Positions 3,315-49,317 of a stretch of DNA of 64,000 nucleotides are shown here, piece after piece. A program made the position numbers and the translations under genes. Below the pieces are notes generated by a model that was given only the letters and a program-made list of their open reading frames with translations, had not been told where the DNA came from and made no database searches. Where the stretch lies: NCBI RefSeq assembly GCF_001027925.1, contig NZ_LECT01000029.1:1-64000 (forward strand), given 5' to 3'. Origin of the DNA: Rhodopirellula islandica (GTDB taxonomy: Bacteria; Planctomycetota; Planctomycetia; Pirellulales; Pirellulaceae). Position 1 is the stretch's first letter, and the number at the start of each line of letters is the position of its first letter.

Positions 3315-3445
3315 CTAGTGGTCTGTCAGGACTTGTTTTTAGGGTAGTGGACGAGGCCACGAGTCCTGAACCGGCGTCAAATCCAAGGACTCGTGGCCTC
3401 GTCCACTACGATCAACCCTAACTTTTAACTTTGACGGACCACTAG
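3315..3445. mobile_element. 131-bp palindromic MITE, family A, copy 1
   Basis: The element runs from CTAG at 3315-3318 to CTAG at 3442-3445. The ends TGGTCTGTCA and TGACGGACCA are inverted repeats. Inside, a second long stem (arm includes GTGGACGAGGCCACGAGTCC) surrounds a loop of about 18 bases. The same 131-bp element occurs in reverse orientation at 34063-34193. There is no coding capacity, so it would need a transposase supplied in trans. Confidence 0.85.
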
Positions 3446-4670: not shown

Positions 4671-4850
4671 TAAGCGGGTCGGCAGGAATGATCGGGTAGA
4701 ACCTCACGTAGGCGAGTCTCTCTAAGACTCGCAAATGACAGCGTCTCGGAGAGACTCTGCTACGTGATCAAGCCCAATGACTCCCGCTCACGTGCTTATC
4801 GCCCAAACGGCTCACGTGGTGATGCTCGATCATTGCTGCCAACCTGTTTA
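4671..4850. mobile_element. Palindromic element, family B, copy 1 (180 bp)
   Basis: The left end reads TAAGCGGGTCGGCAGGAATG. The right end is the reverse complement of TAAACAGGTTGGCAGCAATG, giving inverted termini of about 25 bases. The same termini bound an element at 24571-24699 and half an element at 27671-27723. This copy has gained an internal palindrome at 4704-4767. Confidence 0.7.
4704..4767. repeat. Nested 64-bp palindrome inside family B copy 1
   Basis: The outer arms TCACGTAG/CTACGTGA and inner arms GAGTCTCTC/GAGAGACTC form a long imperfect hairpin. Family B copy 2 has no matching sequence here, so this looks like a separate small element inserted into copy 1. Confidence 0.6.
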
Positions 4851-4986
4851 GCGAGTTGCGAGGTTGGTCCCACATCGGACCCACGAATTGCCGAGTTTCC
4901 GAAACCAGGATGAGCAGTGGGATCAGCTTTTAGCTTGTCGTGGATCCAATGACAGGCTGGAAGCCTATCCCACAGAGACAAGGGGG

Positions 4987-23586: not shown

Positions 23587-24573
23587 TTGGCTGAATTGAA
23601 ACTTGCCGTCCGGATGGACGCCATCCCGGGTACCGGCGCCTCTGCCACCGCACTGCGTAAGTCATTGACCATCGCAGCCTCGATGGGCGTTCGAAGTGTC
23701 GAACTGTGTGGTCGCACCCACGTGCCCGTATCTGATTTGTCGGACACTGGCGTACGGACCTTGCGGAAAATCCTGGACGATTTGAATTTGCGGATTGCAT
23801 CCATCCGGTTTCCAACCCGGTTTGGGTACGATGTGACGGACCATTTGGATGAGCGAGTCGACGCCACCAAATCGGCGATGAAAACGGCTTACCGCTTGGG
23901 AGCACCGTTGATCGTCAATCAAATCGGAACCGTTCCGCCGCGACCTCAAAACATTGACCAAGCTGTCAAAAAAGCAGGCAGCGCGCTGCTCCTCGATCCG
24001 TCCGCGAAAGCAGGCGAATCCGATTGGAGCAACGATTTGCCAGCCGACTTGGCGGCAGAACTCGCCAATTCAATCGCGGCCTCCCGAATCGGCAAAGCAA
24101 TCGCCGGCCAAGGTGTGGCGGGCAGCGACGCATCCCGGTGGGAAACATTGCGTGAAGTCATGGATGATCTGGGCCGCTATGGCGCCAAAGTGGGCTGTTT
24201 CTTGGCCGCTGAAACCGGAACCGAATCTGGCACCGACTTGGCTGCCCTGCTGGATGCGATCCCGGACAGCTTCATTCCAGTGGCCTTGAACCCGGGCCAG
24301 TTGATCATCAACCGATTCCGAGTGGACGAGGCCATCAACGCACTCGGTTCACGGATTTCAATCGTGCATGCCGTGGACGGTGTCTTGGACCTGGCCGCCG
24401 GTCGCGGGATGGCGGTCCCGGTCGGCGAAGGCACCGCGGACTTCCCTGCCTTGTTGGGGCAACTGGAAGACATTCCATTCCGCGGACCGATTGTCGTCGG
24501 CCGACCAGAAATGCGTCCAGAGACCGCCATCATGGAATTGCAGCAGAGCCTGGAATACTTGCGGAACCTCTAA
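23587..24573 (+). CDS. Sugar phosphate isomerase/epimerase-like TIM barrel
   Basis: A 328-residue protein of the xylose-isomerase-like TIM-barrel superfamily. Signs are the strand-helix rhythm with MGVRSVELCGRTH, RIASIRFPTRFGYD, GCFLAAETGTESG (a glutamate at the fourth barrel strand) and ISIVHAVDG. The usual ExD/H metal ligands are incomplete by eye, so the exact reaction is unknown. The start is uncertain: TTG at 23587 gives MAELKLAVRMD, while the first ATG is at 23614. The stop TAA (24571-24573) is the first three bases of a palindromic repeat element (separate entry). Confidence 0.7.
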   Translation: MAELKLAVRMDAIPGTGASATALRKSLTIAASMGVRSVELCGRTHVPVSDLSDTGVRTLRKILDDLNLRIASIRFPTRFGYDVTDHLDERVDATKSAMKTAYRLGAPLIVNQIGTVPPRPQNIDQAVKKAGSALLLDPSAKAGESDWSNDLPADLAAELANSIAASRIGKAIAGQGVAGSDASRWETLREVMDDLGRYGAKVGCFLAAETGTESGTDLAALLDAIPDSFIPVALNPGQLIINRFRVDEAINALGSRISIVHAVDGVLDLAAGRGMAVPVGEGTADFPALLGQLEDIPFRGPIVVGRPEMRPETAIMELQQSLEYLRNL

Positions 24574-24699
24574 GCAGGTCGGAAGGAATGATCGGGCATG
24601 ATCATGTGAGCCGTTTGGGCGTTCGCCCCGGTTGTACGTGGAAGCAACGACGCTTGCCGAAACAGTCCCAATGCCGAAAGACTCCTGCCGACCTGCTTA
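24571..24699. mobile_element. Palindromic element, family B, copy 2 (129 bp)
   Basis: The inverted ends TAAGCAGGTCGG (24571-24582) and CCGACCTGCTTA (24688-24699) are perfect over 12 bases and extend imperfectly. The left 48 bases match the reverse complement of 4800-4850. The terminal TAA serves as the stop codon of the preceding gene. Confidence 0.75.
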
Positions 24700-24845
24700 G
24701 AGCGGTTTCCCATAACGCGAAATTGAACATCGGCCGGCCGATTGGCCGATCAAGCACCGCCTCGTGCTCCCGCGGCGGCTTGCCTGAGCCACTGCCGCGT
24801 CGCCAAGTCGTCTCATTCGGATGGAGCCCCCCTCCCATGGCGGGC

Positions 24846-26135
24846 TTAGAACCCGAGTTGCTCGGAAGATTCGCGTTCGATTTCGGTGCGGTCGTACATC
24901 GCTTGAATCAGATCCATGTCGCACTGCCGCTGTTCCACCTTCCGACGGGCGAACATCCGAGCTTGTGTGTTGATCATCACCTCCGGCGGCAACAGCGATG
25001 TCTGACCAAACAGCCGCGCGTAGTTGACGTAACTGGGCACGTTGCTGGTCACAAACCCGTACAACATGCTGCAGACACCGATCACCTTGCCGGTGAAAAT
25101 CCCGGTGTTGATGGCTGATTTGGAATAGTCGCCCATGATGCAGCCCAGAAATTGCATTCCAGAGGCCATCTTTCGATCGCCATACTCGATGTTGATTTTG
25201 CCGTAGGTGTTTTTCAGGTCACTGTTGCAGGTCCCCGCACCGAGGTTGATCCAACTGCCCAAGTAACTGTGCCCGAGGAATCCGTGGTGCTGCTTGTTCG
25301 TGTAGGCTTCGATCACGGACGCTTCGACTTCGCCGCCGATCTTGACCGTGTGTCCAAGTGCGACGCCGTCTTTGATCGCCGAGTGTTCCAGCACCCGTGT
25401 GCTGTGTCCTGCGTGCAGCGGGCCTTCTAAGAAACAGAACGGACCGACCTGAACGTTTTCATCGAGAACAATCGGACCACCCGACGTATGAATCGATGCG
25501 AATTCTCCGATCTTCACTCCGGGGCGAACAAACACACCGTCCTCACGCTGCGTGTAGTCACCATGTTCGATGCGGTAGTTGACCGAATCGTTCATCGCTG
25601 CCATGTGACCGGCAACCACTTCATGAGGCCACTGAAACGCTTTCAATGACGATCGCGAACTCACGTTTTGATGGGCGATCTGTTGCAGCCTCTCCAACGG
25701 ACTGAGTCCGACTTCCGACTTGGACGACTTCGCAATGTCACCCGCCGTGATGAATGCAGCCAACAACTCAAACTCGTTTCCATTGTCGGTGCCAATCACG
25801 GCCGCGGTCTGGCCGGCTTGGATCAACTGCTTCAGCGTTTCATAGGTCTGCACCGAGGGAATCAATCGAGCGTTGACGAGCAACACCTCTTCGTCCGCAG
25901 CAATTTCCTTGGCGGGTGATTGAAGCCCGTGATCCGCCTCTTGAATGGGCAACAAGTACTCACGAATCAACCCTTGAATCTCACAAGCCTTGCCGCCGCT
26001 TGAATTTTCTTTCGCAAGTGTCTTCAGCCAATCGATCAATCGAAAACTTGCACAGGTGATCGCGTAGGCGGGGCGAGCGTGAACAATCGGGCAGAGCTGT
26101 TCCACGCGAGTATCTTCGAAGCAGAGAATTTGCAT
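24846..26135 (-). CDS. GlmU-like sugar nucleotidyltransferase (PF13562 type)
   Basis: A 429-residue protein. The N-terminus MQILCFEDTRVEQLCPIVHARPAYAITC matches the NTP-transferase domain of the PF13562 group, which lacks the classic GxGTRM loop. The C-terminal half is a left-handed beta-helix of hexapeptide repeats (VRPGVKIGEFASIHTSGGPI, SVIEAYTNKQHHGFLGHSYLG, NLGAGTCNSDLKNTYG) like the acetyltransferase half of GlmU. Likely role: making or modifying an activated sugar. The substrate is not visible from the sequence. It is convergent with the isomerase-like gene and divergent from the next plus-strand gene. Confidence 0.8.
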   Translation of the reverse strand: MQILCFEDTRVEQLCPIVHARPAYAITCASFRLIDWLKTLAKENSSGGKACEIQGLIREYLLPIQEADHGLQSPAKEIAADEEVLLVNARLIPSVQTYETLKQLIQAGQTAAVIGTDNGNEFELLAAFITAGDIAKSSKSEVGLSPLERLQQIAHQNVSSRSSLKAFQWPHEVVAGHMAAMNDSVNYRIEHGDYTQREDGVFVRPGVKIGEFASIHTSGGPIVLDENVQVGPFCFLEGPLHAGHSTRVLEHSAIKDGVALGHTVKIGGEVEASVIEAYTNKQHHGFLGHSYLGSWINLGAGTCNSDLKNTYGKINIEYGDRKMASGMQFLGCIMGDYSKSAINTGIFTGKVIGVCSMLYGFVTSNVPSYVNYARLFGQTSLLPPEVMINTQARMFARRKVEQRQCDMDLIQAMYDRTEIERESSEQLGF

Positions 26136-26363
26136 GAGCGGGACAAGGCGTGCGGAAAGCGGAAGATCAGACGAGCGTTTGGTTCCGAGTCCGAAACCGG
26201 TTGCAACGATTAGGGAGTTTACCGGGCTTCAGGATCGAGGTCGCGGGGACAACTCGTGGCAAATCTATTGGTCGCGTGGGGTGGACGAAACTAAAGTGAA
26301 GTGAAGCACATCGCGATGCCCACCGTCGGACCCAAACAGGAAAATTCCCAAGTTTGTTTTCCA

Positions 26364-27617
26364 ATGCAAGCATCCCTCACACGCCAAGGCCATCGTTTGC
26401 CCCATTCGCCAAAGCTCTCTCGACGACGCAAACTGCGACGAACGATCTTGGCGTCCGCTTGGATGGCATTGAACACCTCCTCTTCCACCACAGCGGCCGC
26501 TGAACCCGCCGATGTTGACCACAGTGCGAACGTCGACTGGATGCAGACAGACTGGGCTGCCGACGCAGAACTGAGTTCACGCCCCTCGGCGGAAGAGATT
26601 GCAAAGATTGATCGGCGTCTGGCACAGCTCGAATCCGATTCAGCGGTGATCCGCCGAATGACGTCGGACCGGCTGTTCTCGCAAGCGATCCACGGCGGCG
26701 ATGAAGTTCGCCGCGCGGTGCTGTCGCGTCTGCGTAGCCTGCGTGTCTCGCTGTCATTGGACGTTCGCCAAGCCGCTGATCAATTGAACCAACGCATCCG
26801 TTTGGCGGCTCATCAGCGAGCCATTGAATCATTGGCTCGTTCGCCCTGGGAAGACCTGGCAACCAACCCTGCACATGAACTGAATCGCGAACTCGACCAG
26901 TGGTGGCAGCATTTTTCCGAGCGTGCCGGTGACGACACCGATTCGATCCGGCAATTTCAACAGGTCGCCAAATCGGCGGGGCCGGATTGGCAATGGCATC
27001 CGGCACTCCACCGTTCGACACCGCTCATTCAGTCCGCCTGCGATCAATGGGCCTGTCTGTTGGGGATCTGCGTTCCCGATTGTGGAATCCGGTACGTTCC
27101 CGCATCCAACACACTGAAACGCCACCTGCTGAAAGATTGTTCTCGCATCTGCCGCGGGCAAACGGCAGGCGATCGCGTTGTCGGGCGACTGATTGAATCC
27201 ACTTTGCAACGCAATCCCTATGGCTGGTCGCTGGAAACTCGATTGTCCATCGGTTTGACTCATCAACGCACTGAATTGGTCCAAGGATTGTGCGAGCAAA
27301 TTTGGAACTCGCCCAATGCAAGACCTCGTGACATTGCCTTGTCACTGCTGGCCGCCGATCTCGTGCACCACCCATCACGACAGGATCACCTGAATTCGCT
27401 CTTGGACGATCGTCGCGTGATCACCGTCCTTCCGGGACAAGCTCACTTTGGCGTTGGAGAAACCAACTGGCCTCGGTCGATCGTTGTGCCCCGAGTTTGT
27501 GACGTGGCTCAATACTTGCTTTGGAAGGACCAAGGCATCGACGCACGCCAGCAGGGCATGACCGCGATCCAAGCCGACCCCATTTGGGGAACTCGGTTGG
27601 AATCCATCGGTCGCTGA
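26364..27617 (+). CDS. Exported protein of unknown function
   Basis: A 417-residue product from ATG 26364; in-frame starts at 26301 (GTG) and 26316 also exist. A basic stretch SRRRKLRRTILASAWMAL followed by TTAAAEPAD looks like a signal peptide. The rest is mainly helical with many Arg/Leu (RRLAQLESDSAVIRRMTSD, VLSRLRSLRVSLSL, ALSLLAADLVHHPSRQDHL), which suggests repeat-like helices, but I recognise no family. It lies alone between a divergent nucleotidyltransferase and a convergent membrane protein. Confidence 0.55.
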   Translation: MQASLTRQGHRLPHSPKLSRRRKLRRTILASAWMALNTSSSTTAAAEPADVDHSANVDWMQTDWAADAELSSRPSAEEIAKIDRRLAQLESDSAVIRRMTSDRLFSQAIHGGDEVRRAVLSRLRSLRVSLSLDVRQAADQLNQRIRLAAHQRAIESLARSPWEDLATNPAHELNRELDQWWQHFSERAGDDTDSIRQFQQVAKSAGPDWQWHPALHRSTPLIQSACDQWACLLGICVPDCGIRYVPASNTLKRHLLKDCSRICRGQTAGDRVVGRLIESTLQRNPYGWSLETRLSIGLTHQRTELVQGLCEQIWNSPNARPRDIALSLLAADLVHHPSRQDHLNSLLDDRRVITVLPGQAHFGVGETNWPRSIVVPRVCDVAQYLLWKDQGIDARQQGMTAIQADPIWGTRLESIGR

Positions 27618-27670
27618 TCCGAAACTCGCGACCCGACCAAACAACATCGTGAGAGCCAGCGATCCAACAG

Positions 27671-27723
27671 CCCGTGAACGCCTAACGGCTCACGTCCCCG
27701 AAGACTCCTGCATGCCTGCTCAA
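27671..27723. mobile_element. Palindromic element, family B, copy 3 (half element)
   Basis: On the minus strand it begins TTGAGCAGGCATGCAGGAGT and continues to a GTGAGCCGTT block, matching one half of copies 1 and 2. Its outermost TGA (complement of 27720-27722) is the stop codon of the adjoining minus-strand gene. The other half is missing. Confidence 0.6.
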
Positions 27724-28262
27724 TAGCTCGGCGGCGCGTCAGCGCGAAGCTCTTCGAGCCGCTGTTGTTGATGCCAAAGAATACTGTCAACAAGCACGCT
27801 ACCGTCTTCGTTGTAAGAATCTTCTTGCTTGCTCATTTCAGCGACCTTGGCCTCCAACCGTTCGACTTGCGTTTTCCATTGAGCAAACGCGTCGCGGTGG
27901 TCCGGTTTCAAGCGAGTTTGCTCGATCCAAAGACGGCGTTGCCGGTCCGCAATGAAGGCTGCATCCTCTTGCTTGGCGGCCGCCAGATACGCTTCGTTGC
28001 GTTGCTTTCGCATTCGAAAGTCCTCGTCGGTCGGAGCCGAATGCGAGGTGCTGGTCACAGGGACCACGGCGTTGCGGGCCGGCGAAGCGCTGACCCAAGA
28101 GACGGTGCTCCGAACCAGCACAATGCAGCCTGCGATCGATCCGATCGACAGGACTGCGAAGATAGCCAACTTGCCAATCCAACTCGACTTGGCAGGTTTC
28201 TTGAGTGCTTTCCGAAGAGGTTCTTCGGGAAGCGGACGTTGATCGGGAGATGAGGAGTTCAT
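27720..28262 (-). CDS. Small single-pass membrane protein, unknown function
   Basis: A 180-residue protein. After a Pro/Lys-rich cytoplasmic start (SSPDQRPLPEEPLRKALKK) there is one transmembrane helix (IGKLAIFAVLSIGSIAGCIVLV), then a charged, probably coiled-coil region (RMRKQRNEAYLAAAKQEDAA; QVERLEAKVAEMSKQED). It ends ADAPPSY with a TGA formed by the family B repeat. It lies 74 bp downstream of the Tad-like operon on the same strand, so it may belong to it; no family is recognised. Confidence 0.55.
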   Translation of the reverse strand: MNSSSPDQRPLPEEPLRKALKKPAKSSWIGKLAIFAVLSIGSIAGCIVLVRSTVSWVSASPARNAVVPVTSTSHSAPTDEDFRMRKQRNEAYLAAAKQEDAAFIADRQRRLWIEQTRLKPDHRDAFAQWKTQVERLEAKVAEMSKQEDSYNEDGSVLVDSILWHQQQRLEELRADAPPSY

Positions 28263-28336
28263 GTCATACTCTAGGTCACAAGTTGTGACGATGATCTCAA
28301 TTTCCCTCGCGAAGGAACTTTTCCTTGCGACGAGTC

Positions 28337-29644
28337 TCAATCGGTCAAAATTGTCGGCAGGTTATTGGCGATTTCTTCAAACGCCTCCACCAGTTCGTCA
28401 CCGGAATCGGCATGGTAGTGCTTCCCCAGTCCCGTCACGGCAACCTCTTGCATCGTCGCTTGGTTCGCTCCACTTCCGAACGTGACCGTTTGAATGTTGA
28501 GATTCTCTGAACTCATCAAGTTGCGGGCGATCGTGTTGGGAGCCGTCCCGTAGTTGTGAATGCCATCGGTCATCACCACCATTGTCTTCGAAGCGTAGGG
28601 ACGAGCGTTCTGGTGCGTGAAAGATGTTGCACCTGAGGTCATGCCGTTGCCGATCCCGGTAGAACCACTGGGCCCGAGCCGGGCAACGGTCGCACGAACC
28701 GCATCAAAGTCATCCAACAACCAACAATCCAAACTGCCGTGACTGTTGTAGCTGGCAATCGAAACCTGTTCGTTCTGAGGTGTTTGATCGAGGACTTGCA
28801 AGAAGGCGTCAACGGCCATCACCAAATCTTCCCAAGGCGTGTTGGGGGCAGGTCCCAGACCAAAGAATTCTTCCCATGCATAATCGTACAGGTCTTCTTC
28901 GTCATACCCGCGGTTGTAACTCACCCGGCGAATGTAGTCCGGTTGTCCGTTGCGATAACGCCACTCCAAATCAACGATGCCTTCGTCTTCGGCCGCAATC
29001 AAACTGTCTTCTGCCCACGGATCTGATCCGTCAGGCCAGTCATAGGTCTTCCAATCCATCGAACCACTGCGGTCGAGCACCAAGCTGATGTCCCGGTCAA
29101 CTTGCATTGCGACGGCGGAAGTCACCGGGCGAAAGTCACTGATTGAAAAGGTGTTTGGGAAAATGAACGGCACAGGTCCCATCAACGATTCCCCAGTCCG
29201 CTTGCCGGTCACGCGGACGGAGCTGACGGCCACCATGTTGGCGGACACATCACCGGTCGGAACCTTTGTGAACTGGAACCGACCCGTGCGGCCATCGGCT
29301 TGTGCCGACACGCCAAATTCAAATTCATTGGCTCCGTCGTTTGTGTTCAGCTGATAGGGTTCGCCGGCCACTTCATTCATTGCAGCGGTCAAACGAGCAG
29401 CCTCTTTTGCCGCCTCAACCGTTTGCTCTTCACTGAAGGCACGTCCGCCTGCCCGAGCGGCGGCGTCGGTCGCAATCGCCAATTCCGTCTTCACCAACTG
29501 CATCTGTGCCAAGTTGATACAGAAGGCAGCCAGCAGAGCCAGCATCGGCAACACGAAGGCCATCAAAACAGTGATGCCGCCGCGACGTGTTGCGTCGCCT
29601 CGCGTCATCGTGAATCGCATGGGAACGGGGGAAACGGACATCAT
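28337..29644 (-). CDS. TadG-like protein with vWA domain
   Basis: A 435-residue protein. The N-terminal pseudopilin-type segment (RRGGITVLMAFVLPMLALLAAFCINLAQMQLV) matches TadE/TadG. After it, a von Willebrand A domain begins at ISLVLDRSGSMDW, whose DxSxS is the metal-binding motif, with later TGIGNGMTSG and VVMTDG. TadG proteins help assemble or anchor Flp/Tad pili, and in planctomycetes these genes are common without a full tad locus. It is third in a minus-strand run with two TadE-type genes (72-bp gap). Confidence 0.83.
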   Translation of the reverse strand: MMSVSPVPMRFTMTRGDATRRGGITVLMAFVLPMLALLAAFCINLAQMQLVKTELAIATDAAARAGGRAFSEEQTVEAAKEAARLTAAMNEVAGEPYQLNTNDGANEFEFGVSAQADGRTGRFQFTKVPTGDVSANMVAVSSVRVTGKRTGESLMGPVPFIFPNTFSISDFRPVTSAVAMQVDRDISLVLDRSGSMDWKTYDWPDGSDPWAEDSLIAAEDEGIVDLEWRYRNGQPDYIRRVSYNRGYDEEDLYDYAWEEFFGLGPAPNTPWEDLVMAVDAFLQVLDQTPQNEQVSIASYNSHGSLDCWLLDDFDAVRATVARLGPSGSTGIGNGMTSGATSFTHQNARPYASKTMVVMTDGIHNYGTAPNTIARNLMSSENLNIQTVTFGSGANQATMQEVAVTGLGKHYHADSGDELVEAFEEIANNLPTILTD

Positions 29645-29716
29645 TGAAACTCCAAAACGAAACGTTGGATTGGTTAATCGAAAAAGGATCCCCCCGGACC
29701 GTTCTTCATTCTTGAA

Positions 29717-30229
29717 TCAGTTGACTTGAAAAAAGCCGTTGTATCGTTCGGTCTGCATCGTGGCCGAAGATGTCAATCGAAGATTGCCCAAGAACATGGG
29801 AGTGAACAATGCCACGTCATCCAAGTCGATGCTGACTGTCACTGTGACCTCTTCGGTGTCGTCATCGATTTCGGTGCAATCGACCTCATACCCGCCGCTG
29901 AACAAAGACTGCATGATCAACTCGGCTTCATTGACGGCTTCGTCCGCGGTTGCTCCGGGCACAATCGCCGTGCGAGCCGCGTAGTAGGCCGCGTCTTGGG
30001 CGAGGTTCCGTGCCATGTTCATGCGAGCCAGTTCCATGCACATGAAGATGGTCAGCAACAGCAAATTGCTGACGATGGCAAACTCCACCAACGTGGCGCC
30101 GACTCGCTTGACCGACCGAGCAGCCGGACGACGACAAGGCCGAACGGATGGACGCGGAACGATTCCGTTGCGACGACGTCTGCGAACGCTCTGGGCTTGG
30201 TTTGAAATGGACTTCGATGGATAGATCAT
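29717..30229 (-). CDS. TadE-like pseudopilin
   Basis: A 170-residue protein. A basic leader (RRRRNGIVPRPSVRPCRRPAARSVKR) precedes the TadE signature GATLVEFAIVSNLLLLTIFMCMELARMNMARNLAQDAAYYAAR, with the conserved Glu at position 5 of the mature segment, as needed by type IV prepilin-like peptidases. A short beta-rich C-terminal domain follows (EEVTVTVSIDLDDV). It starts 11 bases after the stop of the first TadE gene, suggesting one transcript. Confidence 0.82.
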   Translation of the reverse strand: MIYPSKSISNQAQSVRRRRRNGIVPRPSVRPCRRPAARSVKRVGATLVEFAIVSNLLLLTIFMCMELARMNMARNLAQDAAYYAARTAIVPGATADEAVNEAELIMQSLFSGGYEVDCTEIDDDTEEVTVTVSIDLDDVALFTPMFLGNLRLTSSATMQTERYNGFFQVN

Positions 30230-30240
30230 GGTGGCGATGC

Positions 30241-30726
30241 CTAGTCTTGATTCCTGAATTCTTTTCGCATCGTGATTCGATGCGTGATATCCAGGTCGTT
30301 GTACAAACCAGCCGGAGCATACAAGTTGCCGGCAGCGGGAACGGTGACCACAATCGTGACGTGTTCCAACGTGTCAGCCGTGCTGAACGTGCTGTTTTCC
30401 AGAGTGACTGCGTTGCCTTCATAGCTGACCCCTCGTTCGTCCAAGATTTCATGCACACGGGCAATCGCAGCTTGATCCGTTCCGCCCCGGTTGATTCCAC
30501 GCCGAGCGCCTTCATAAGCAGCAATGGCAACGGTTTCCTTCAAAAAGAAGATGGAGCACAAGTCCACCGTCGCGAACGTGAACGTCAACAAGACCGGCAG
30601 GCAAAAAGCGATCTCAGCCGTCGCGGTTCCGCGACGTGGTTGATTCAGGTTGCCTCCGGAACGCGCCCGGCCGGCTGTGAAAAAGCCGGGTCGCGTTCGC
30701 TTGGAGGCGTGATTGACAGGATTCAT
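30241..30726 (-). CDS. TadE-like pseudopilin, first gene of the operon
   Basis: A 161-residue protein. The conserved segment RRGTATAEIAFCLPVLLTFTFATVDLCSIFFLKETVAIAAYEGAR fits the TadE family, with the Glu near the start of the hydrophobic stretch. The C-terminal part (VTIVVTVPAAGNLYAP) is a small beta domain. It is followed closely by a second TadE gene and a TadG gene. Its likely processing enzyme is the prepilin peptidase encoded divergently at 31010. Confidence 0.8.
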   Translation of the reverse strand: MNPVNHASKRTRPGFFTAGRARSGGNLNQPRRGTATAEIAFCLPVLLTFTFATVDLCSIFFLKETVAIAAYEGARRGINRGGTDQAAIARVHEILDERGVSYEGNAVTLENSTFSTADTLEHVTIVVTVPAAGNLYAPAGLYNDLDITHRITMRKEFRNQD

Positions 30727-30802
30727 GATGCGGGGACCAAAGGCGTTGGCGGCCAGTGAAAAGTCGGGTGACGAATCTTGTTGCTCTGGAAAGTTGAGCT
30801 TT

Positions 30803-30850
30803 GGGAAGACAGTCGGGCCGAAAAGGTTGATCAGGTCAGGGAAGACAGTC
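30803..30850. promoter_or_regulatory. Direct repeat upstream of the Tad-like operon
   Basis: GGGAAGACAGTC occurs at 30803-30814 and again at 30839-30850, 36 bases apart on the same strand, 77-124 bp before the first TadE start. Spacing near 3.5 helical turns could suit a regulator, but no factor is known. Confidence 0.35.
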
Positions 30851-30873
30851 AGGTTGGTAGCTTCGTAGGGAAT

Positions 30874-30890
30874 GGTTCTCGAGAAGAACC
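30874..30890. promoter_or_regulatory. Palindrome between Tad-like operon and prepilin peptidase
   Basis: The arms GGTTCT/AGAACC flank CGAGA, forming a 17-bp inverted repeat in the divergent intergenic region (30727-31009). It is about 120 bp before the peptidase ATG. The rest of this gap contains no gene. Confidence 0.4.
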
Positions 30891-31009
30891 TCTAACGAAA
30901 ACCTAGCTCTGAAAATTCACCTGGGCGTGAAAAATCTTTCAAAACCTTCTAACCTCTGCGCCAGGCCGCGTTTTGTGTGCCGCTTCCTGCAACCGACAGC
31001 AAAGTCCGC

Positions 31010-32443
31010 ATGATTGATCTGACCTTTCCCGCACCTGTCATTGATTCGATGGCAACCACGCTGATTGAAACGCAGGCCCTGGTTCAAATTGCGCCATCGA
31101 TCGGCATGCTGGCAGAGATCACGCCGATTTGGTTGGCGGGTTGGCTCACGGCGTGGTTGGCACTTTCTCCCACGACCCAGACGGCGATTCTGGCGTTGCT
31201 TGGGATCCTCGGCGGTGCCTTGGCCAACCACATCATTCCAACTTGGTGCTGGTACCCCCGTCCGATTTCGCCATGGGTTGATCGAGGCCGCTGGCCGTTG
31301 CTGCCCGAATTCGAATCCATTTCGCGAACCCTTCCCGCTCGAACCTGGGCGGATCGCATCCCCGTCTTGGGTTGGTTCCGCTTGCGGCGAGAAGCCGAGA
31401 TGTTTGGACGCTGGTTCTGGGTCCGGCCGATTCTGATCGAACTTTCACTCGCGGCCACCCTGCCGTTCATGCATCGCGCCTACTTGGCGGGGCAACTGCT
31501 GCCGACCGGAGTCACACCCGCCACGGTGGCTGCCTGCACGGACTGGATGGCATTGCTGTTTTTCTTGCACGCAGCGTTCTTGGTTTGGTTGGTCGCAGCG
31601 ACATTCATCGACTTCGACGAACGCACCATTCCCGATCTGCTGACGATCCCGGGCACGATCGTGGCCATCGGCTTGGGAACCCTCACACCGTTCGCTTTTT
31701 TGCCCGGCTTGGTGGTCAACAATTCCGTGGAAGGCATCGCGCCCGTCTTGGCCAACCATCCGTTTGGGCTCTCACCGTTCTGGACCAGCCCTCGTGGATT
31801 GATGACCGGTTTGGCGATTTGGGCAGTCTGGTGCTTCGCTTTGGCTGACCGACGCTTTTATCTACGCCGCGGATGGTCCAAGGCGTGGGGTTACTTTTGG
31901 TTTGGACTGACCCGCCACAACTCGTGGAAATTTTTGGTTGCCATGTGGCTGGTGGGTTCTGCCCTGATCGTCGTGACTTACTCCACCAGCCCGATCGGTT
32001 GGATGGGCATGATGACCTCGCTGACCGGATTGGCGGTGGGCGGCGGGATCGTCTGGATCGTGCGATTGGTCTGCGGTTGGGCCATTCAAATGGAAGCGAT
32101 GGGTTTCGGCGACGTCACGTTGATGGCGATGATCGGTGCGTTGATCGGTTGGCAAGGCAGCATCCTCGCATTCTTTCTGTCCCCCATCGCCGCCTTGGTG
32201 ATCGTGTTGGTGGTGTTTGTTCTGACTCGTGATCCGCGAACGCCGTTTGGCCCCTACTTGTGTCTGGGAACCCTGTTGGTCGTTTGGTACTGGGACGACG
32301 TCTACAACGCTCGGTTCCGGACCACGTTGCTGCTGATGGGCGACGTCTTGCTTTGGATGGCGGTCGCCATGCCGCCGATCCTCGCATCCATGATGTGGAT
32401 CACCCGCAAGATACGCTTGCAAGTGTTACCGGATGCGGACTGA
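31010..32443 (+). CDS. Prepilin peptidase, A24 family (PilD/CpaA-like)
   Basis: A 477-residue multi-pass membrane protein with about ten hydrophobic segments. The two catalytic aspartates of A24 peptidases are visible in FIDFDERTIPDLLTIPG and in GFGDVTLMAMIGAL (the GxGD motif). The N-terminal IPVLGWFRLRR block matches the PilD cytoplasmic region, but its zinc-binding cysteines are absent. Predicted to cut leaders of type IV/Tad prepilins, the likely substrates being the divergent TadE/TadG-like proteins. Start 31010 (MIDLTFP) is preferred over 30977. Confidence 0.85.
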   Translation: MIDLTFPAPVIDSMATTLIETQALVQIAPSIGMLAEITPIWLAGWLTAWLALSPTTQTAILALLGILGGALANHIIPTWCWYPRPISPWVDRGRWPLLPEFESISRTLPARTWADRIPVLGWFRLRREAEMFGRWFWVRPILIELSLAATLPFMHRAYLAGQLLPTGVTPATVAACTDWMALLFFLHAAFLVWLVAATFIDFDERTIPDLLTIPGTIVAIGLGTLTPFAFLPGLVVNNSVEGIAPVLANHPFGLSPFWTSPRGLMTGLAIWAVWCFALADRRFYLRRGWSKAWGYFWFGLTRHNSWKFLVAMWLVGSALIVVTYSTSPIGWMGMMTSLTGLAVGGGIVWIVRLVCGWAIQMEAMGFGDVTLMAMIGALIGWQGSILAFFLSPIAALVIVLVVFVLTRDPRTPFGPYLCLGTLLVVWYWDDVYNARFRTTLLLMGDVLLWMAVAMPPILASMMWITRKIRLQVLPDAD

Positions 32444-32696
32444 GACAAGGCGTTTGGACTCATTCACCTCCTTCGCGGGCGTGGTCGGTTGATTGAATGC
32501 GTTTCGCAGATTTCGCGATCAGCCGATGGGCGATCGCCCACGACCGCCCACGGTCACCGGAGACGAACCGGACGCGATCGCGTTCCGGATGATCAACTCA
32601 ACAGCCTGCTACGGGGGGCTTCCACTCGCTGCTGAATCGGCACTTCCAACCCGCACGACCTCTTGATTGAGTGGAAATGAGTTCGGGCCAGTCCAG

Positions 32697-32942
32697 TCAA
32701 AACAGCAGCATCAAGAAACCACCGACGAAGGCCGCCAACACCACCCACACGGTGATGTGCCAAAGTGGTCTTCCCCCAGCCCAAACGTTTCGGCTGGTCG
32801 AATCGGGGAACTCGCGAGCCAGAAAGTCTTCGTAGTCGTCCTCGTCCCACTCGTCGGAGTGCTCTTCCCCTTCGCTGGCGTCATCGTCGAATTCATCGTC
32901 GTCGCTCGATTGCCAGGAATCATTGTCCCAATGGTTCGTCAT
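32697..32942 (-). CDS. Small acidic tail-anchored membrane protein
   Basis: From ATG 32942 it encodes 81 residues; ATG 32978 would add 12. The N-terminal half is very acidic (WQSSDDDEFDDDASEGEEHS), and the C-terminus is one hydrophobic helix (WHITVWVVLAAFVGGFLMLLF) with only the stop after it, a tail-anchor layout. It is divergent from moaA. I recognise no family. Confidence 0.5.
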   Translation of the reverse strand: MTNHWDNDSWQSSDDDEFDDDASEGEEHSDEWDEDDYEDFLAREFPDSTSRNVWAGGRPLWHITVWVVLAAFVGGFLMLLF

Positions 32943-33055
32943 GGAAGGTCGGTGTTGGGGGGGCGAATTCACGTTCATCAGCGTTGGCGGCACCGGTCGC
33001 CGCTTCGCTCGTCTGTCGCATCGCATCATGGAGGCGGGGCGGTTACCCTACCAAC

Positions 33056-34066
33056 ATGACTGATCCCATTGCATTGGTCGATCGCTTTGGTCGACGCCAC
33101 GATAGCCTTCGCATCAGTATCACGGATCGTTGCAACATCCGCTGTTTTTACTGCATGCCCGAACACGACGCGGCGTTTCTGCCTCGCAGCGGCGTGTTGA
33201 CGTTCGAAGAAATCGAGCGATTGGCTGGGCTGATGGTTCATCGCTGCGGCGTGCGGGACATCCGGATCACGGGCGGAGAACCTCTGGTCCGACGCGACTG
33301 TGTCGAATTGACTGCGATGCTGGCCCAAATCGAAGGCTTGGAAGACCTGTCGATGACCACCAACGGCATGTTGCTTCGCGAGCATGCGGCTGATTTGCGT
33401 GCGGCAGGATTGCAGCGACTGAACATTTCGCTGGACACACTCGACGAAGCCACCTTTGCCAAAATCACTCGTCGCCCTGGCGTCGACCGAGTCATCGAAG
33501 GAATCGATGCCGCCATCGAGGCCGGGTTTGAATCGATCAAACTCAACGCGTTGGCCATCCGTGGGATCAGCGAATCGGAACTGGTTGGCTTGGTCCGTTT
33601 TGCGATCGGAAGAGGGGTCACCTTGCGTTTCATCGAGTTCATGCCGCTCGACAGCGACCGGGCTTGGCAATCCGCCGACGTGCTGTCCGGAGACGCCTGC
33701 CTGCGATTGCTGAGCGAAGCGTTTGGCGAAGTCACTCCCACGGGCCGTCAAAATCAGTCGGCCCCCGCAGAAACGTTCCACCTTGCTTGTGATGGCCGCG
33801 AAGGCACGATCGGAATCATCCGCTCCGTGACCCAGCCGTTTTGTGGCGATTGCAACCGTTTGCGATTGACCGCCGACGGTGGGCTGAGAAATTGTTTGTT
33901 CGCTCAAAACGAGACACCGCTGCGAGATGCCATGCGAAGCGGGTGCGACGACGACGCGCTGATACAAAAGCTCCAACAGTGTGTGGGCGAGAAACGCGCC
34001 GCTCACGGCATCGACTCGGACAATTTCCGCCCTCCCGATCGTCCCATGCATGCGATTGGTGGCTAG
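33056..34066 (+). CDS. moaA: GTP 3',8-cyclase MoaA
   Basis: A 336-residue radical SAM enzyme that converts GTP to 3',8-cyclo-7,8-dihydro-GTP, the first step of molybdopterin synthesis. The N-terminal iron-sulfur site is C26-x3-C30-x2-C33 (CNIRCFYC); the C-terminal cluster is FCGDCNRLRLTADGGLRNC. GGEPLVR is the SAM-binding glycine motif. The protein ends PMHAIGG, as MoaA proteins usually do, and its TAG stop is part of the CTAG end of a MITE. A molybdopterin-dependent oxidoreductase gene occurs at 56.1 kb. Confidence 0.95.
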   Translation: MTDPIALVDRFGRRHDSLRISITDRCNIRCFYCMPEHDAAFLPRSGVLTFEEIERLAGLMVHRCGVRDIRITGGEPLVRRDCVELTAMLAQIEGLEDLSMTTNGMLLREHAADLRAAGLQRLNISLDTLDEATFAKITRRPGVDRVIEGIDAAIEAGFESIKLNALAIRGISESELVGLVRFAIGRGVTLRFIEFMPLDSDRAWQSADVLSGDACLRLLSEAFGEVTPTGRQNQSAPAETFHLACDGREGTIGIIRSVTQPFCGDCNRLRLTADGGLRNCLFAQNETPLRDAMRSGCDDDALIQKLQQCVGEKRAAHGIDSDNFRPPDRPMHAIGG

Positions 34067-34193
34067 TGGTCTATTACTGCTAAAAGTTAGGGTTGACCGC
34101 AGTGGACGAGGCCACGAGTCCTTGGATTTGACGCCAGTTCAGGACTCGTGGCCTCGTCCACTACCCTAAAAACAAGTCCTGACAGACCACTAG
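34063..34193. mobile_element. 131-bp palindromic MITE, family A, copy 2
   Basis: Same length as the copy at 3315-3445 but inverted, with most bases identical. It is bounded by CTAG at 34063-34066 and 34190-34193. The first CTAG supplies the TAG stop of moaA. The long internal stem would form a strong hairpin in the moaA transcript directly after the stop. Confidence 0.88.
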
Positions 34194-34340
34194 CCGCACG
34201 CGGCGGATGTCATGAAAACGAACGAGCCCGTGACACGTTGAACACGGGTGTTGGGCGAGCGCTGAAACAATCCGCCCGACAATCATCGCTCAACGTACAA
34301 ACAGGACGCCGTTGGCCCCCCGCGTTCCGAATTCGTTCGC

Positions 34341-34346
34341 TATAAT
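34341..34346 (+). promoter_or_regulatory. -10 box of a probable leaderless promoter
   Basis: A perfect TATAAT is followed by seven bases and then the ATG of the SpoIIM-like gene at 34354. With normal spacing, transcription would begin at the A of the ATG, giving a leaderless mRNA. No good -35 box stands 17 bases upstream. Confidence 0.5.
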
Positions 34347-34353
34347 CGCTCGC

Positions 34354-35457
34354 ATGAACATCGCCAATCTGCTCGACAAACGACGATCGAACTGGGGCGA
34401 ATTGGAACGTCTTTGCGAGGCCATGGAAGTTCGAGGACGAACAGACAAGGCTGGGCCTCAATACAAAGGTGCCGCTGGCATCGTTCGTTTTGCAACGCTG
34501 TATCGCGGCGCATGTGCGGACTTGGCTTTGGCCGATGCGTACCAATTGCCTCCCGCTACGGTGACCTACCTGCACCGGCTCGTCGCGCGCTCACACAACC
34601 AGCTTTATCGAGCCGGCAAATTTGAACCCACCGGTTGGTTCGACATGATTTTTCGCGTCGCGCCACGCGAGATCTATGGCGATGCCTGCGTCCGCGTCGC
34701 CACCATCGTGTTCTTCGGTTTGTTCGCGCTGTCGATGTACTTGGGCTACCAACAAACCCTGTTCCCCGATTTTGCCAACGTCGTAGTTGGCGAAGCAGGC
34801 CTGGAACAGATGGAAGAGATGTACGAAATGGAACTGGTCGGCAGCCTCGACCACTACATCAGCATGTCCAGCTTCTACATCATGCACAACACTGGGATTG
34901 GGCTGAAATGTTTCGCCTATGGAATCCTGATCGTGCCGTGCCTTTACATCTTGTCGAGCAACGCCGTGACGCTGGGCACCGTGTTTGGCTACATGGCTCG
35001 TGAGGACGTCGCCAGTCGCGACAATTTCTTTGAGTTCGTCACTGCACACGGTCCATTTGAGTTGACAGCGATCGCCTTGTCCGCCGCCGCGGGACTGCGT
35101 CTGGGGATGGGACTGTTCGCCACCGGAGGCTTGAGCCGAATCGACTCGGTTCGTCGATCAGCAGTGCGAGCCGTTCCAGTCATTTCCGCCGCAGCCGTCT
35201 TGTTCGTGCTCGCCGCCTTCACCGAAGGTTTTATCTCCCCCAGCCCACTGGCATACACCTTCAAGGCGGGATGGTCGGTGATGTCTTCCAGCATGATCAG
35301 CTTCTACTTCGTCGTCCTCGGCTTCCCTGGAAATCGCCAACATCGAACCGGCGGACGCCCCATCGATACTATCTGGAATGACGAGTCCACTGAAACTTCC
35401 GAGTCCAACACGCTAGCCAACCTCAGTGGCGGGAGCTCGAGCGTCCGTGCAGCTTGA
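34354..35457 (+). CDS. SpoIIM-family (DUF95) membrane protein
   Basis: A 367-residue protein. A soluble N-terminal helical segment (LDKRRSNWGELERLCEAME) is followed by about six transmembrane helices with FEFVTAHGPFELTAIALSAAAGLRLGMGLF, the conserved block of the SpoIIM/DUF95 family. Outside spore formers these proteins travel with DUF4129, DUF4350 and MoxR genes, as here, in a membrane complex of unknown role. It is first in a five-gene operon; the next gene overlaps it by 32 bases. Confidence 0.8.
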   Translation: MNIANLLDKRRSNWGELERLCEAMEVRGRTDKAGPQYKGAAGIVRFATLYRGACADLALADAYQLPPATVTYLHRLVARSHNQLYRAGKFEPTGWFDMIFRVAPREIYGDACVRVATIVFFGLFALSMYLGYQQTLFPDFANVVVGEAGLEQMEEMYEMELVGSLDHYISMSSFYIMHNTGIGLKCFAYGILIVPCLYILSSNAVTLGTVFGYMAREDVASRDNFFEFVTAHGPFELTAIALSAAAGLRLGMGLFATGGLSRIDSVRRSAVRAVPVISAAAVLFVLAAFTEGFISPSPLAYTFKAGWSVMSSSMISFYFVVLGFPGNRQHRTGGRPIDTIWNDESTETSESNTLANLSGGSSSVRAA

Positions 35458-45317: not shown

Positions 45318-47917
45318 GGCTTGCCCGCCGCCAGTTCCAAGTCAGCTTGCATTCTTCGAATTCGATCTGCCAAAGTTTCGCTGCTGACCCGTTCCCGCAA
45401 TTTGTCGACCAACAGCCCGAACGCCAACGGAGTCACACGTTTCGGTTCGTTGAGAAGGATGCGGCTCGCCTGAATGCGTTGCAACGCCAACCGCATCCGC
45501 GAAGATTCCAGTTGCTGTTCCAGCACTTCCCGGCGACTCTGTTCCAAAAGCATGTTGTTCGGATCGTACTGACAGAAAACATCAAAGAACAAATTGCTGC
45601 TGGCTTGCAAATGCCCGGCACTTTTTCGCCGACCGGGCAGACCAGGGTGAATCAAACCGGCAACGCGTGCGATCTGACGAAACTGACGCTTTGCCATCTC
45701 GGTCGAGTTCATGCTTTTCAAAATCTCTTCGACCAAGTCACCGGTGGCGAACACCCCAGCGGTCACCGCCTGTTCGACCTCGATTGGCGTGGGTGACTGC
45801 AACACGATGCCGTGGTCATTGCAGCCAATGGAAAACGTCTGCGTCCGTCGTTGCGACATGCGATACGCAAACAGCGCCGCCAAGCCTTCGTGAACGAGAC
45901 GGCCTTCAAACGGATACAAAAACACGTGATGCCCGCCGCGAGTCTTGACCTTTTCCATCAACAGTTCATCGCTGCGAGGCAGCGTGCTCCACTCAGCCTG
46001 CAATTCCAGCAACGGTTTGAGCGACTTCATTTCTCGACCGACGAAGGTCCCCTCGGAAGCCTGCTCGATTCGTCTCCGGAGTCCGTCGCTCAGTTCACTC
46101 GAGAGCGGCATGCGTGCGCCCATCCAACGCGGCACCGTGTCTGGTTTTCCCTTGGCCCGACGCACGTACGCTGCGTTGTCTTTGACACGCACCAATTCCA
46201 CCAAGCGGCCCGCGAACAGAAACTTGTTGCCGGGTTTCAGTTTTGAAAGGAAACTCTCCTCCGCGCTTCCAAGCGTCTTTCCTTTCAGATACTTCACCTG
46301 CATCGATGCATCGGCGACGATCGTGCCGATGTTCATGCGGTGATTGGTGATCGTCCGTCGCTGAGTCACTTGGAATCGCTCGTCGACGACTTCGACGCGG
46401 TGGTAGTCCGGGTAGGCTTCCAGTGACTCGCCCCCGCGAACGACGAAGTCCAAAACCCATTGCCACTCCGGATCGGTCAGTGATTGATACGCGTGAGCCA
46501 TGCGAACCTCTTCTAGCAGAGCGTCCTGGGTGAAGCCTCCGCCGATCGCGATCGTCACGACATGTTGAGCGAGCACATCGAGCGGTTTGTCCAACATTGG
46601 CCGAGCCTCCAAGCGACCACTGCGAATGGCGTCTTGGGCAGCCGCCAACTCGATCAGTTCAATCGCATTGGTGGGAACAAACACCAGCCTGCTCGTCGCG
46701 TCAGGCTGATGCCCACTTCGGCCCGCCCGTTGCAACAATCTCGCGGCCCCTTTGGGACTGCCGATTTGAACCACTAAATCCACGGCGGTGAAATCCACCC
46801 CCAGGTCCAAACTGCTGGTGCAAACCACCGCACGCAGCTTCCCTGCACGCAAGCCGTCCTCGACCCATCGGCGGACGGACATGTCGAGCGAACCATGATG
46901 GATCGCGATCTGCCCCGCCCACTCGGGTTTCTGCTTCAACAGATGCTGATACCAGATCTCGGTTTGCGAACGAGTGTTGGTGAAAACCAACGCACTTTGG
47001 ACGGACTCCAACAACTGCACGACCTGTGGAACCATTTTGGTGCCGAGATGCCCTGACCAGGGAAATCGATCCATTTTTTCCGGAATGATGGACTCCACTT
47101 TGATCTTCTTGTTTTTGTGCCCTTCCACCACTTTGACTCGGTCGGCCGGAGTGTCTCCCATCAAGGCCTGACACGCCTGAGCCAAATTGCCGAGGGTCGC
47201 CGACACACCCCAGATCCGCAGATCGGGATTGAGCGAACGAAGCCGCGACAGTGCTAACTCGGTTTGAATGCCACGCTTCGTGCCCAGCAACTCGTGCCAT
47301 TCGTCGACGATCACACATTCCAATTGCGACAACTGAGCCAGAAGTTTCTCATGCGTCAGCATCAACGAAAGACTTTCCGGCGTCGTGACGAGTGCCGTTG
47401 GAAGCTTCTTCAGTTGCCGCTGCTTCGCACTCTGTTTGCTGTCGCCCGTTCTGGATTCAAGGGTCCACGGCAGCCCCAGCGCATCAAGCGGTGCGCGGAG
47501 TGACTTCTCAGTGTCACCGGCCAGCGCACGCAGCGGCGTGATCCACAGGACACGAACCGGCGGACTTCGCTTCGGATTCCATTTCGACCTGTCAGGGTTC
47601 TCCTGCAGCCATTTCAGGATCGGCCCCATCCAAACGCCCAGTGTCTTTCCCGTCCCCGTCGCGGAGTGCAACAACCCGCTGTAGCCATCGCGATAACTCC
47701 GCCAAACTGTTCGTTGAAACGCGAATGGTTTCCAACCAATTGACGCGAAGTAGCGGTCAATTGTCTGAGTGGGTGTCTCGGGCACGAGCTTAAGAGAGTT
47801 GTTCAAAGGATCCGATTGGCGGCTTGGGTTGTTCGTCAGCGATTTGCGGCCCCAGCAAAATGAACCGCAGCGGTCGTCCGTCGACAACGCAATCTGTGTG
47901 CCACAGAGCGAAGTCAT
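45314..47917 (-). CDS. Ligase-associated Lhr-like DEXH helicase
   Basis: An 867-residue superfamily 2 helicase from ATG 47917. Motifs: FQRTVWRSYRDGYSGLLHSATGTGKTLGVW (Q and Walker A), VIVDEWHELLGTKRG (DEWH), WGVSATLGN, then LVFTNTRSQTEIWYQ and LQRAGRSGHQPDA. Such helicases pair with PdeM, an ATP-dependent ligase and an MBL exonuclease in DNA repair clusters. The similarity expected for the family begins near ETPTQTIDRYFASIGW, so the real start may be the GTG at about 47785. Confidence 0.92.
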   Translation of the reverse strand: MTSLCGTQIALSTDDRCGSFCWGRKSLTNNPSRQSDPLNNSLKLVPETPTQTIDRYFASIGWKPFAFQRTVWRSYRDGYSGLLHSATGTGKTLGVWMGPILKWLQENPDRSKWNPKRSPPVRVLWITPLRALAGDTEKSLRAPLDALGLPWTLESRTGDSKQSAKQRQLKKLPTALVTTPESLSLMLTHEKLLAQLSQLECVIVDEWHELLGTKRGIQTELALSRLRSLNPDLRIWGVSATLGNLAQACQALMGDTPADRVKVVEGHKNKKIKVESIIPEKMDRFPWSGHLGTKMVPQVVQLLESVQSALVFTNTRSQTEIWYQHLLKQKPEWAGQIAIHHGSLDMSVRRWVEDGLRAGKLRAVVCTSSLDLGVDFTAVDLVVQIGSPKGAARLLQRAGRSGHQPDATSRLVFVPTNAIELIELAAAQDAIRSGRLEARPMLDKPLDVLAQHVVTIAIGGGFTQDALLEEVRMAHAYQSLTDPEWQWVLDFVVRGGESLEAYPDYHRVEVVDERFQVTQRRTITNHRMNIGTIVADASMQVKYLKGKTLGSAEESFLSKLKPGNKFLFAGRLVELVRVKDNAAYVRRAKGKPDTVPRWMGARMPLSSELSDGLRRRIEQASEGTFVGREMKSLKPLLELQAEWSTLPRSDELLMEKVKTRGGHHVFLYPFEGRLVHEGLAALFAYRMSQRRTQTFSIGCNDHGIVLQSPTPIEVEQAVTAGVFATGDLVEEILKSMNSTEMAKRQFRQIARVAGLIHPGLPGRRKSAGHLQASSNLFFDVFCQYDPNNMLLEQSRREVLEQQLESSRMRLALQRIQASRILLNEPKRVTPLAFGLLVDKLRERVSSETLADRIRRMQADLELAAGKP

Positions 47918-47923
47918 CCTCCC

Positions 47924-47987
47924 AACCCGACGCGTCAGCGAGGGACTCACCACCGAGCAGCACGGTCCCTCGCTCACACGTCGGGTT
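47924..47987. repeat. REP hairpin 1
   Basis: The left arm (core CGACGCGTCAGCGAGGGAC) and right arm (GTCCCTCGCTCACACGTCG) pair along about 21 bases with few mismatches, around an 18-base loop CACCACCGAGCAGCAC. It lies directly upstream of the helicase start. Confidence 0.8.
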
Positions 47988-48085
47988 GGGAATGCCAGCG
48001 AGCTCCCCTCATCCGCCGTGAAATGCAGCCGTCGAAATGAGTGGCTGATTGCCTTGGTACAATTGCATGCGTCTCATCATCACAA

Positions 48086-48108
48086 CCCGACGCGTCAGCG
48101 AGGGACTC
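48086..48108. repeat. REP left arm interrupted by the RAYT gene
   Basis: Only the left arm of the hairpin (CCCGACGCGTCAGCGAGG...) is present; instead of the loop, the transposase gene begins a few bases later. Confidence 0.75.
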
Positions 48109-48114
48109 CTCGAG

Positions 48115-48609
48115 ATGGTTCACAATGTGTCCATGCAAGATCCGTTTGCATTCTTCATCACTTGGCCAACCTATGGCACCTGGCTTCCGGGCAACGATCG
48201 CGGATGGGTCGAGTATCACCATGGGTGGCAATTGCCCAATCGAAATCTCGAGTCAATGTGCACGACACAGATGAAGGAGAAGCAGTGCCTGCTCAATCCA
48301 GGTGATCGAGAAATTGTTGTCGCTCAAGTGACAGAAACTTGCCAAATGCGAGACTGGACGATGCACGCGGTTGATTGCCGATCCAATCATGCACACATCG
48401 TGGTCAGCGCAACCAAGACAGCCCCCAAAAAGATTCGCAAGGATATCAAAGCATGGTGTACACGAAGGCTGAAAGAAAGGTCGAATCCACATCGCACCAA
48501 CTGGTGGGCCGAGAGAGGAAGTATCCGATACATCTGGAACGAAGACTCACTCGCGAGAGTCGTGATGTACGTCACTGAAGCACAGGATCGAAAGGGACTG
48601 GAACGATAG
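48115..48609 (+). CDS. REP-associated tyrosine transposase (RAYT)
   Basis: A 164-residue protein of the Y1 transposase (IS200-like, RAYT) family. It begins QDPFAFFITWPTYGTWLPGNDRG, has the HUH metal motif in DCRSNHAHIVVSATK (H-A-H), and the likely catalytic tyrosine in LARVVMYVTEAQDRKG. RAYTs bind and nick REP hairpins, and this gene lies between REP arms with more copies downstream. Start 48115 gives MVHNVSMQDP; Met at 48133 is an alternative. The gene is intact and full length. Confidence 0.87.
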   Translation: MVHNVSMQDPFAFFITWPTYGTWLPGNDRGWVEYHHGWQLPNRNLESMCTTQMKEKQCLLNPGDREIVVAQVTETCQMRDWTMHAVDCRSNHAHIVVSATKTAPKKIRKDIKAWCTRRLKERSNPHRTNWWAERGSIRYIWNEDSLARVVMYVTEAQDRKGLER

Positions 48610-48611
48610 CT

Positions 48612-48670
48612 ACTCGACGCGTGAGGGACTCACCACCGAGCCGCATGGTCCCTCGCTCAAGCGTCGGGTT
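48612..48670. repeat. REP hairpin on the right of the RAYT gene
   Basis: A slightly shortened left arm (CGACGCGTGAGGGAC), the loop CACCACCGAGCCGCAT, and the right arm GTCCCTCGCTCAAGCGTCG follow the RAYT stop by two bases. Confidence 0.75.
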
Positions 48671-49303
48671 GCGAATGTCACCAAGCTCACGTCATCCGCC
48701 GTGAAATGCAGCCGTCGAAATGAGTGGCCGATTGCCTTGGTACAATTGCATGCGTCTCATCATCACATCCCGACGCGTCAGCGAGGGACTCACCACCGAG
48801 CAGCACGGTCCCTCGCTCACGCGTCGGGTTAGGAATGCCAGCGAGCTCCCCTCATCCGCCGTGAAATGCAACCGTCGAAATGAGTGGCCGATTGCCTTGG
48901 TACAATTGCATGCGTCTCATCATCACATCCCGACGCGTCAGCGAGGGACTCACCACCGAGCCGTCGCATGGTCCCTCGCTCACGCGTCGGGAATGTCAGC
49001 GAGCTCCCCTCATACGCCGTGAAATGCAACCGTCGAAATGAGTGGCCGATTGCCTTGGTACAATTGCATGCGTCTCATCATCACAACCCGACGCGTCAGC
49101 GAGGGACTCACCACCGAGCCGCATGGTCCCTCGCTCACGCGTCGGGATTGCCAGCGAGCTCCCCTCATCCGCCGTGAAATGCAGCCGTCGAAATGAGTGG
49201 CCGATTGCCTTGGTACAATTGCATGCGTCTCATCATCACAACCCGACGCGTCAGCGAGGGACTCACCACCGAGCAGCACGGTCCCTCGCTCACGCGTCGG
49301 GTT
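48671..49303. repeat. Array of about four REP units with 155-160 bp period
   Basis: Hairpins at 48769-48830, 48929-48990, 49086-49147 and 49241-49303 alternate with a conserved spacer of about 95 bases (including GTCGAAATGAGTGGCCGATT and GGTACAATTGCATGCGTCTC). The same spacer precedes the RAYT gene (about 48000-48082). Unit lengths are 160, 157 and 155. The repeat ends 15 bases before the stop of the ligase gene. Open frames through this array encode repeated peptides such as PTRRVSEGLTTEQ and are not genes. Confidence 0.88.
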
Positions 49304-49317
49304 GGGATATACATTCG

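Follow-up and report, generated by a model that had tools for sequence, protein, structure and literature searches.

The elements described here have several known counterparts. The IS630 / Tc1-mariner MITEs, of which RUP of pneumococcus is an example, are non-coding palindromic elements of about 100-130 bp that duplicate a TA, and a 1991 paper cited in PMC2170065 bears the title 'Preferential transposition of an IS630-associated composite transposon to TA in the 5'-CTAG-3' sequence'. The target duplicated by IS5 is YTAR, with CTAG in 15 of 24 listed sites (PMC5493358), and the 100-nt MITEPsy1 of Pseudomonas syringae duplicates CTAG or YTAA (PMC3189936). A 3'-UTR habit is ascribed to QMITE2 of Coxiella burnetii, and ERIC / RU-1 of enterobacteria are described as 127-bp palindromic, TA-duplicating and intergenic elements (PMC2759123, PMC2229807).

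The two families found in Rhodopirellula islandica, A and B, resemble these counterparts, although A is not assigned to an element family. Family A duplicates CTAG as do IS5 and MITEPsy1, and family B has the TA duplication, size and palindromic non-coding build of the IS630 MITEs as well as ends in common with an IS630-type DDE_3 element. Family B is unlike the IS630 MITEs in its hundreds of ends, its stacking with family A and the roughly one third of its insertions outside genes that lie on stop codons. With ERIC / RU-1 it has in common the palindromic form, the TA duplication and the intergenic setting, although the fusions described there remove or add stops whereas A and B insert on the stop itself (PMC2759123, PMC2229807). 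One QMITE2 insertion extends a protein whereas with A and B the stop is kept, a comparison made by description. No report of MITEs on planctomycete stop codons was found in the open-licence papers searched.

Two element families and their targets

The window is the whole stretch of 64,000 nucleotides that was analysed, and its relevant features are as follows.

3315..3445, minus strand: second family A MITE of the window, CTAG at both ends, intergenic, 39 nt from a called start and not at a stop
4671..4852, no strand assigned: longer family B variant, with 95% identity over 4673-4798 to another B element elsewhere, of 199 bp (L160)
23587..24573, plus strand: xylose-isomerase-like TIM-barrel gene (PF01261, E 6e-26), ending CTC TAA
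24571..24699, plus strand: family B MITE at the isomerase-like gene (TA 24571-24572, 125-bp core 24573-24697, TA 24698-24699)
27676..27720, minus strand: putative 45-nt remnant, from a single end of a B element (best match 84% over 45 nt, E 1e-11)
27720..28262, minus strand: gene of unknown function with a TGA stop
33056..34066, plus strand: moaA (GTP 3',8-cyclase; TIGR02666, E 8e-119), ending GGC TAG
34063..34193, plus strand: family A MITE at moaA (left CTAG duplication 34063-34066, 123-bp core 34067-34189, right CTAG 34190-34193)

Family A is a palindromic, non-autonomous mini-transposon (MITE) of 123 bp with a 4-bp CTAG target duplication, as judged from the best-scoring 40 of 134 candidates in the host genome (G000; 7.43 Mb, 55 contigs), fetched with their flanks and aligned. 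Its ends are TGGTCTGTCA with the CTAG duplications outside, and the core of the copy at moaA reads TGGTC..GACCA. A CTAG/CTAG pair flanks 21 of the 40 copies, and the two sides covary in the variants CTAC/CTAC (two copies) and GTAG/GTAG (one copy); since these vary jointly all four bases belong to the duplicated target, and a duplication of TA only is ruled out. The 4-bp YTAR/CTAG duplication, a trait of IS5-type MITEs, is thus present, and in contrast to the IS5-type elements no transposase with family A ends was found, the three PF01609 loci of the host genome (L198-L200) being without such ends on both sides at up to 3 mismatches. Family A also occurs in Rhodopirellula solitaria and Neorhodopirellula pilleata, where CTAG pairs flank 10 of 12 A-type copies. 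The elements with these ends and duplications measure 389-390 bp in R. solitaria (L202-L204, L211, L212, L236-L242) and 113 bp in N. pilleata (L201, L205, L208-L210). Some family A copies of the host lie within CTAG-rich short tandem repeats such as CTTCTAGCTTCTAG (flanks of L059, L074, L076, L091, L093).

Family B is a non-autonomous MITE of 125 bp that duplicates TA, mostly at YTAR. A first sample, the best 40 of 341 candidates in the host genome, again fetched with flanks and aligned, revealed a small non-coding body with terminal inverted repeats, the 125-bp core being of equal length in 38 copies with a mean pairwise identity of 91%; in the copy at the isomerase-like gene it reads AGCAGG..CCTGCT. 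TA stands on both sides of 28 of the 40, at targets CTAG (10), CTAA (7), TTAG (5), TTAA (1) and others (5), so that 23 of 28 are YTAR. A 4-bp duplication was ruled out for this family, as the outer bases on the two sides disagree (CTAA against TTAG). The pattern of the inverted repeats matched 326 times in the host genome at up to 3 mismatches, and its reversed control gave no match there at the same threshold. From a listing of about 100 of these 326 matches a second sample of 60 places was taken, 50 with both ends and 10 without the second, and this sample contained a young subfamily, B2, of 15 copies of 123 bp with a mean pairwise identity of 98.8%.

The host genome has two DDE_3 transposase loci. 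In one (L001; E 6e-32) the transposase, whose reading frame has one in-frame stop, sits between two B-like ends, each 2/16 mismatches from those of family B, and in the other (L002) B-like ends are absent. The family B ends are therefore common to an IS630-type element of the same genome, and from this likeness of ends an IS630-type transposase would seem to mobilise family B.

Longer variants bounded by B ends, about 200-590 bp in size, also occur (L142, L143, L144, L160, L164, L165, L188 and window 4671-4852), and some of their end pairings may be chance neighbours. Copies of A and B abut at two places of the host genome, sharing the junction CTA/TTAG (C16:136199-136456, L106/L067; C25:38527-38784, L113/L078), and look as if the target duplication of one element had served as the insertion site of the other. 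At window 47914-49307 lie seven palindromic repeats, each about 78 nt long and spaced 155-160 nt except for one 523-nt gap, which had no relation to families A and B in a blastn scan.

Stop codons before and after insertion

The original prediction was that the elements form the stop codons of the genes they adjoin, in three cases. Two of these are positionally exact: the moaA stop is the TAG of the left CTAG duplication 34063-34066, and the TAA of the isomerase-like gene consists of the left duplication TA 24571-24572 and the first core base, the A at 24573. The third is much less secure, since the similarity covers 45 nt and no second end of the 27676-27720 remnant was found; the gene there has no match in NCBIfam or Pfam, and its TGA, with which it ends in 5/5 relatives examined, is an ancestral stop beside which the remnant lies.

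Comparison with orthologues, a check that the original prediction had itself proposed, goes against the forming of stops in the exact cases also. Among the five closest of twelve relatives, all without the element, moaA ends at the same codon in 5/5 (GGC TAG in three, GGA TAG in one, GGC TGA in one), as does the isomerase-like gene in 5/5 (TAG in three, TAA and TGA in one each). In the sister genome (G002) the empty isomerase site is as predicted, CTC TAG followed by the bases found beyond the element in the window. Comparison with the same genome was extended to 26 further gene ends with an element at the stop, of which 22 were located. A B-type end is present in the sister genome at six of these, and the 16 without one all stop at the gene end (TAA/TAG in 12, TGA in four), with alignment at the identical codon in 14; in the other two, L086 and L111, the alignment ends too early. 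For L106 two places matched, and slightly further on a B-like end is present for L106 and for L118.

With the stop present in relatives and at unoccupied gene ends of the sister genome, creation of stops by the elements is rejected. Given that the stops pre-exist, A copies an existing TAG, and a TAG or TAA hit by B becomes TAA. Element ends that have mutated still yield stops, as in the TAG at L159. At one stop an A element in the host is matched by a B-type end in the sister genome (L073/L214), and at another a B2 copy by a B end that reads differently (L189/L235), possibly recurrent hits on one stop. A caution of wider use is that a stop codon lying within an element does not prove that the element made it.

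Insertion sites against the background

Genes were called by an uncurated codon-usage finder trained on the host genome, and the sampled sequence, drawn from the surroundings of copies, amounts to 986,950 of 7,433,200 bases, so that meaning attaches only to ratios from one class of site to another; the samples are the best-scoring copies and not all copies. One of the 40 A rows was dropped before the rates were tabulated (L083, no TA in either duplication), as were 25 of the 90 B rows (nine from the first sample of 40 and 16 from the second sample of 50, four of them labelled as at a stop) and a further five of the remaining 65 that lay inside a called gene or had no gene on one side. Two A copies first labelled as within genes, L068 and L086, have one mutated duplication, and the intact one places both at a stop.

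Outside genes, family A has its target TA within a stop codon in 11 of 39 insertions, compared with 21 of 221 CTAG sites of the background (Fisher p = 0.003), and family B in 21 of 60 insertions, compared with 66 of 686 YTAR sites of the background (p = 5e-7). About a third of the sampled insertions outside genes are thus exactly on a stop codon in both families, and the two B samples, taken differently, agree (13/40 and 13/50 at stops). Such an excess over target availability in two families unrelated in sequence argues against a chance coincidence of three cases, and in this respect the original prediction is supported. Insertions per available site were distributed as follows.

Family A, per CTAG site: stop 11/21; 1-60 nt past it 13/27; 61-150 nt 7/34; beyond 4/89; divergent regions 4/50
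Family B, per YTAR site: stop 21/66; 1-60 nt past it 14/76; 61-150 nt 7/86; beyond 12/276; divergent regions 6/182

The rate at the stop does not differ from that 1-60 nt past it (p = 1.0 for A, 0.19 for B), which leaves little or no preference specific to stops, and positions more than 150 nt away and those in divergent regions take 5-9 times fewer insertions per site. When the choice among CTAG sites is made at random within the hit regions, 9.0 A insertions are expected at stops and 11 were observed (p = 0.038, nominal), and for B among YTAR sites 18.9 are expected and 21 observed (p = 0.22); measured against any TA the expectations fall to 6.0 and 16.2 (p = 0.006 and 0.027). The stop codon is therefore mostly one among several targets at gene ends. 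Of the target preference at stop codons that the original prediction had raised, what survives is a preference for CTAG (A) and YTAR (B) together with a 3'-end bias, and the data do not call for any preference for the stop codon itself.

At stops nine A copies are oriented with the gene and two against it, and after stops in tandem pairs two with and eight against; for B at stops the numbers are seven with and ten against. The A contrast, 9/11 at stops to 2/10 in tandem downstream positions (loci L058-L097), has p = 0.009, uncorrected for many looks.

Explaining the gathering at gene ends

The explanation that fits best, and that is very probably correct, is that two MITE families with different insertion chemistries share the target core TA in CTAG/YTAR, and that the surviving copies gather at gene ends where the stop is safe. 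The target TA begins TAG and TAA, and so insertion at CTAG or YTAR can land exactly on a stop codon. Family A, in duplicating the 4-bp CTAG, would on insertion into a C-preceded TAG leave an intact stop on both sides of the element; family B, in duplicating TA and having A as the outermost core base at both ends, would on insertion into TAG or TAA leave TA plus A, that is TAA. With ends that restore the stop, the stop codon is a target open to both families without harm to the gene. CTAG and YTAR are also present inside genes and almost no copies are there, so the survivors gather on stop codons and just downstream of them. Against this explanation stand the TGA beside the 27676-27720 remnant, which contains no TA, and the 5-9-fold lower rates beyond 150 nt and in divergent regions, which target and gene avoidance leave unexplained. 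The nominal excess at stops within hit regions (p = 0.038 for A; p = 0.006 and 0.027 for A and B against any TA) also counts against it, as do the fruitless search for a family A transposase, the uncurated gene calls and the sampling of best-scoring copies. The 3'-end excess may come from selection against insertions elsewhere, perhaps with a bias at the time of insertion.

This general bias of both families toward gene 3' ends may come from targeting or from selection. Transposases, or the local DNA state, might favour transcript 3' ends already at insertion, with CTAG/YTAR fixing only the exact base, a less likely proposal for which the near-identical B2 copies speak, as nine of 15 lie between the stop and 60 nt past it, where the background has 142 of 686 sites (p = 0.0012). 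The bias also persists for both families once the length of the intergenic region, the orientation of the genes and AT content enter one model (odds ratio 4.2, 1.7-14.8, for A and 2.9, 1.5-6.5, for B). Fast removal of harmful insertions would however give the same picture, and AT-richness is rejected as the driver of the bias, insertion sites being no AT-richer than other targets. Replication in other species is weak. In N. pilleata and R. solitaria one of 12 A-type copies found by pattern is at a stop, and of 20 regions in the genomes G005 and G006 13 gave both ends, two at a stop and three within 60 nt, and seven gave no pair of ends; these low counts at stops speak against the reading, and five of the 11 outside genes in this small sample, which partly overlaps the 12 copies, are at or up to 60 nt past a stop against five of 33 background sites (p = 0.09). 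The fuller form of the proposal, in which in this planctomycete lineage the ends of transcription units are where two transposition systems of unrelated origin place their new copies, with stop-safe element ends allowing a near-costless spread and the strong hairpin providing a gene boundary, is rather doubtful. Different elements on the same stop, as in the L073 and L189 comparisons with the sister genome, are what recurrent hits would give.

Positive selection, by which copies next to stops would be retained for a long hairpin that ends or protects transcripts, draws on the 3'-end bias and on very stable folds (-76.3 kcal/mol, z -10.8, for A; -58.4, z -4.7, for B), the part of the original hairpin-terminator idea that stands. 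It seems unlikely, since strong folding is expected of any MITE with inverted ends. Both elements fold strongly on both strands (-76.3 and -73.7 kcal/mol for A, -58.4 and -59.3 for B). The mark of an intrinsic terminator, a G+C-rich stem with a T run after it, was absent from the elements in a scan of 24400-34400, where none of nine terminator-like sites falls within an element and where such sites are fewer than in the shuffles (mean 12.1); orientation is also inconsistent. The gene calls are uncurated and three cases in the window are few, which is what chance or an artefact of gene calling would have in its favour, yet two families and the two B samples agree and the sister genome conserves the stop, making this highly improbable.

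Overall the pattern is real and the core of its explanation, shared targets with ends that keep the stop, is ordinary. A short target motif that includes the first bases of TAG/TAA, combined with stop-preserving ends, would let such elements become numerous in a genome densely packed with genes. If the 3'-end bias does reflect targeting at the time of insertion, these families may offer a simple natural system for studying the way in which transposases locate the ends of genes.
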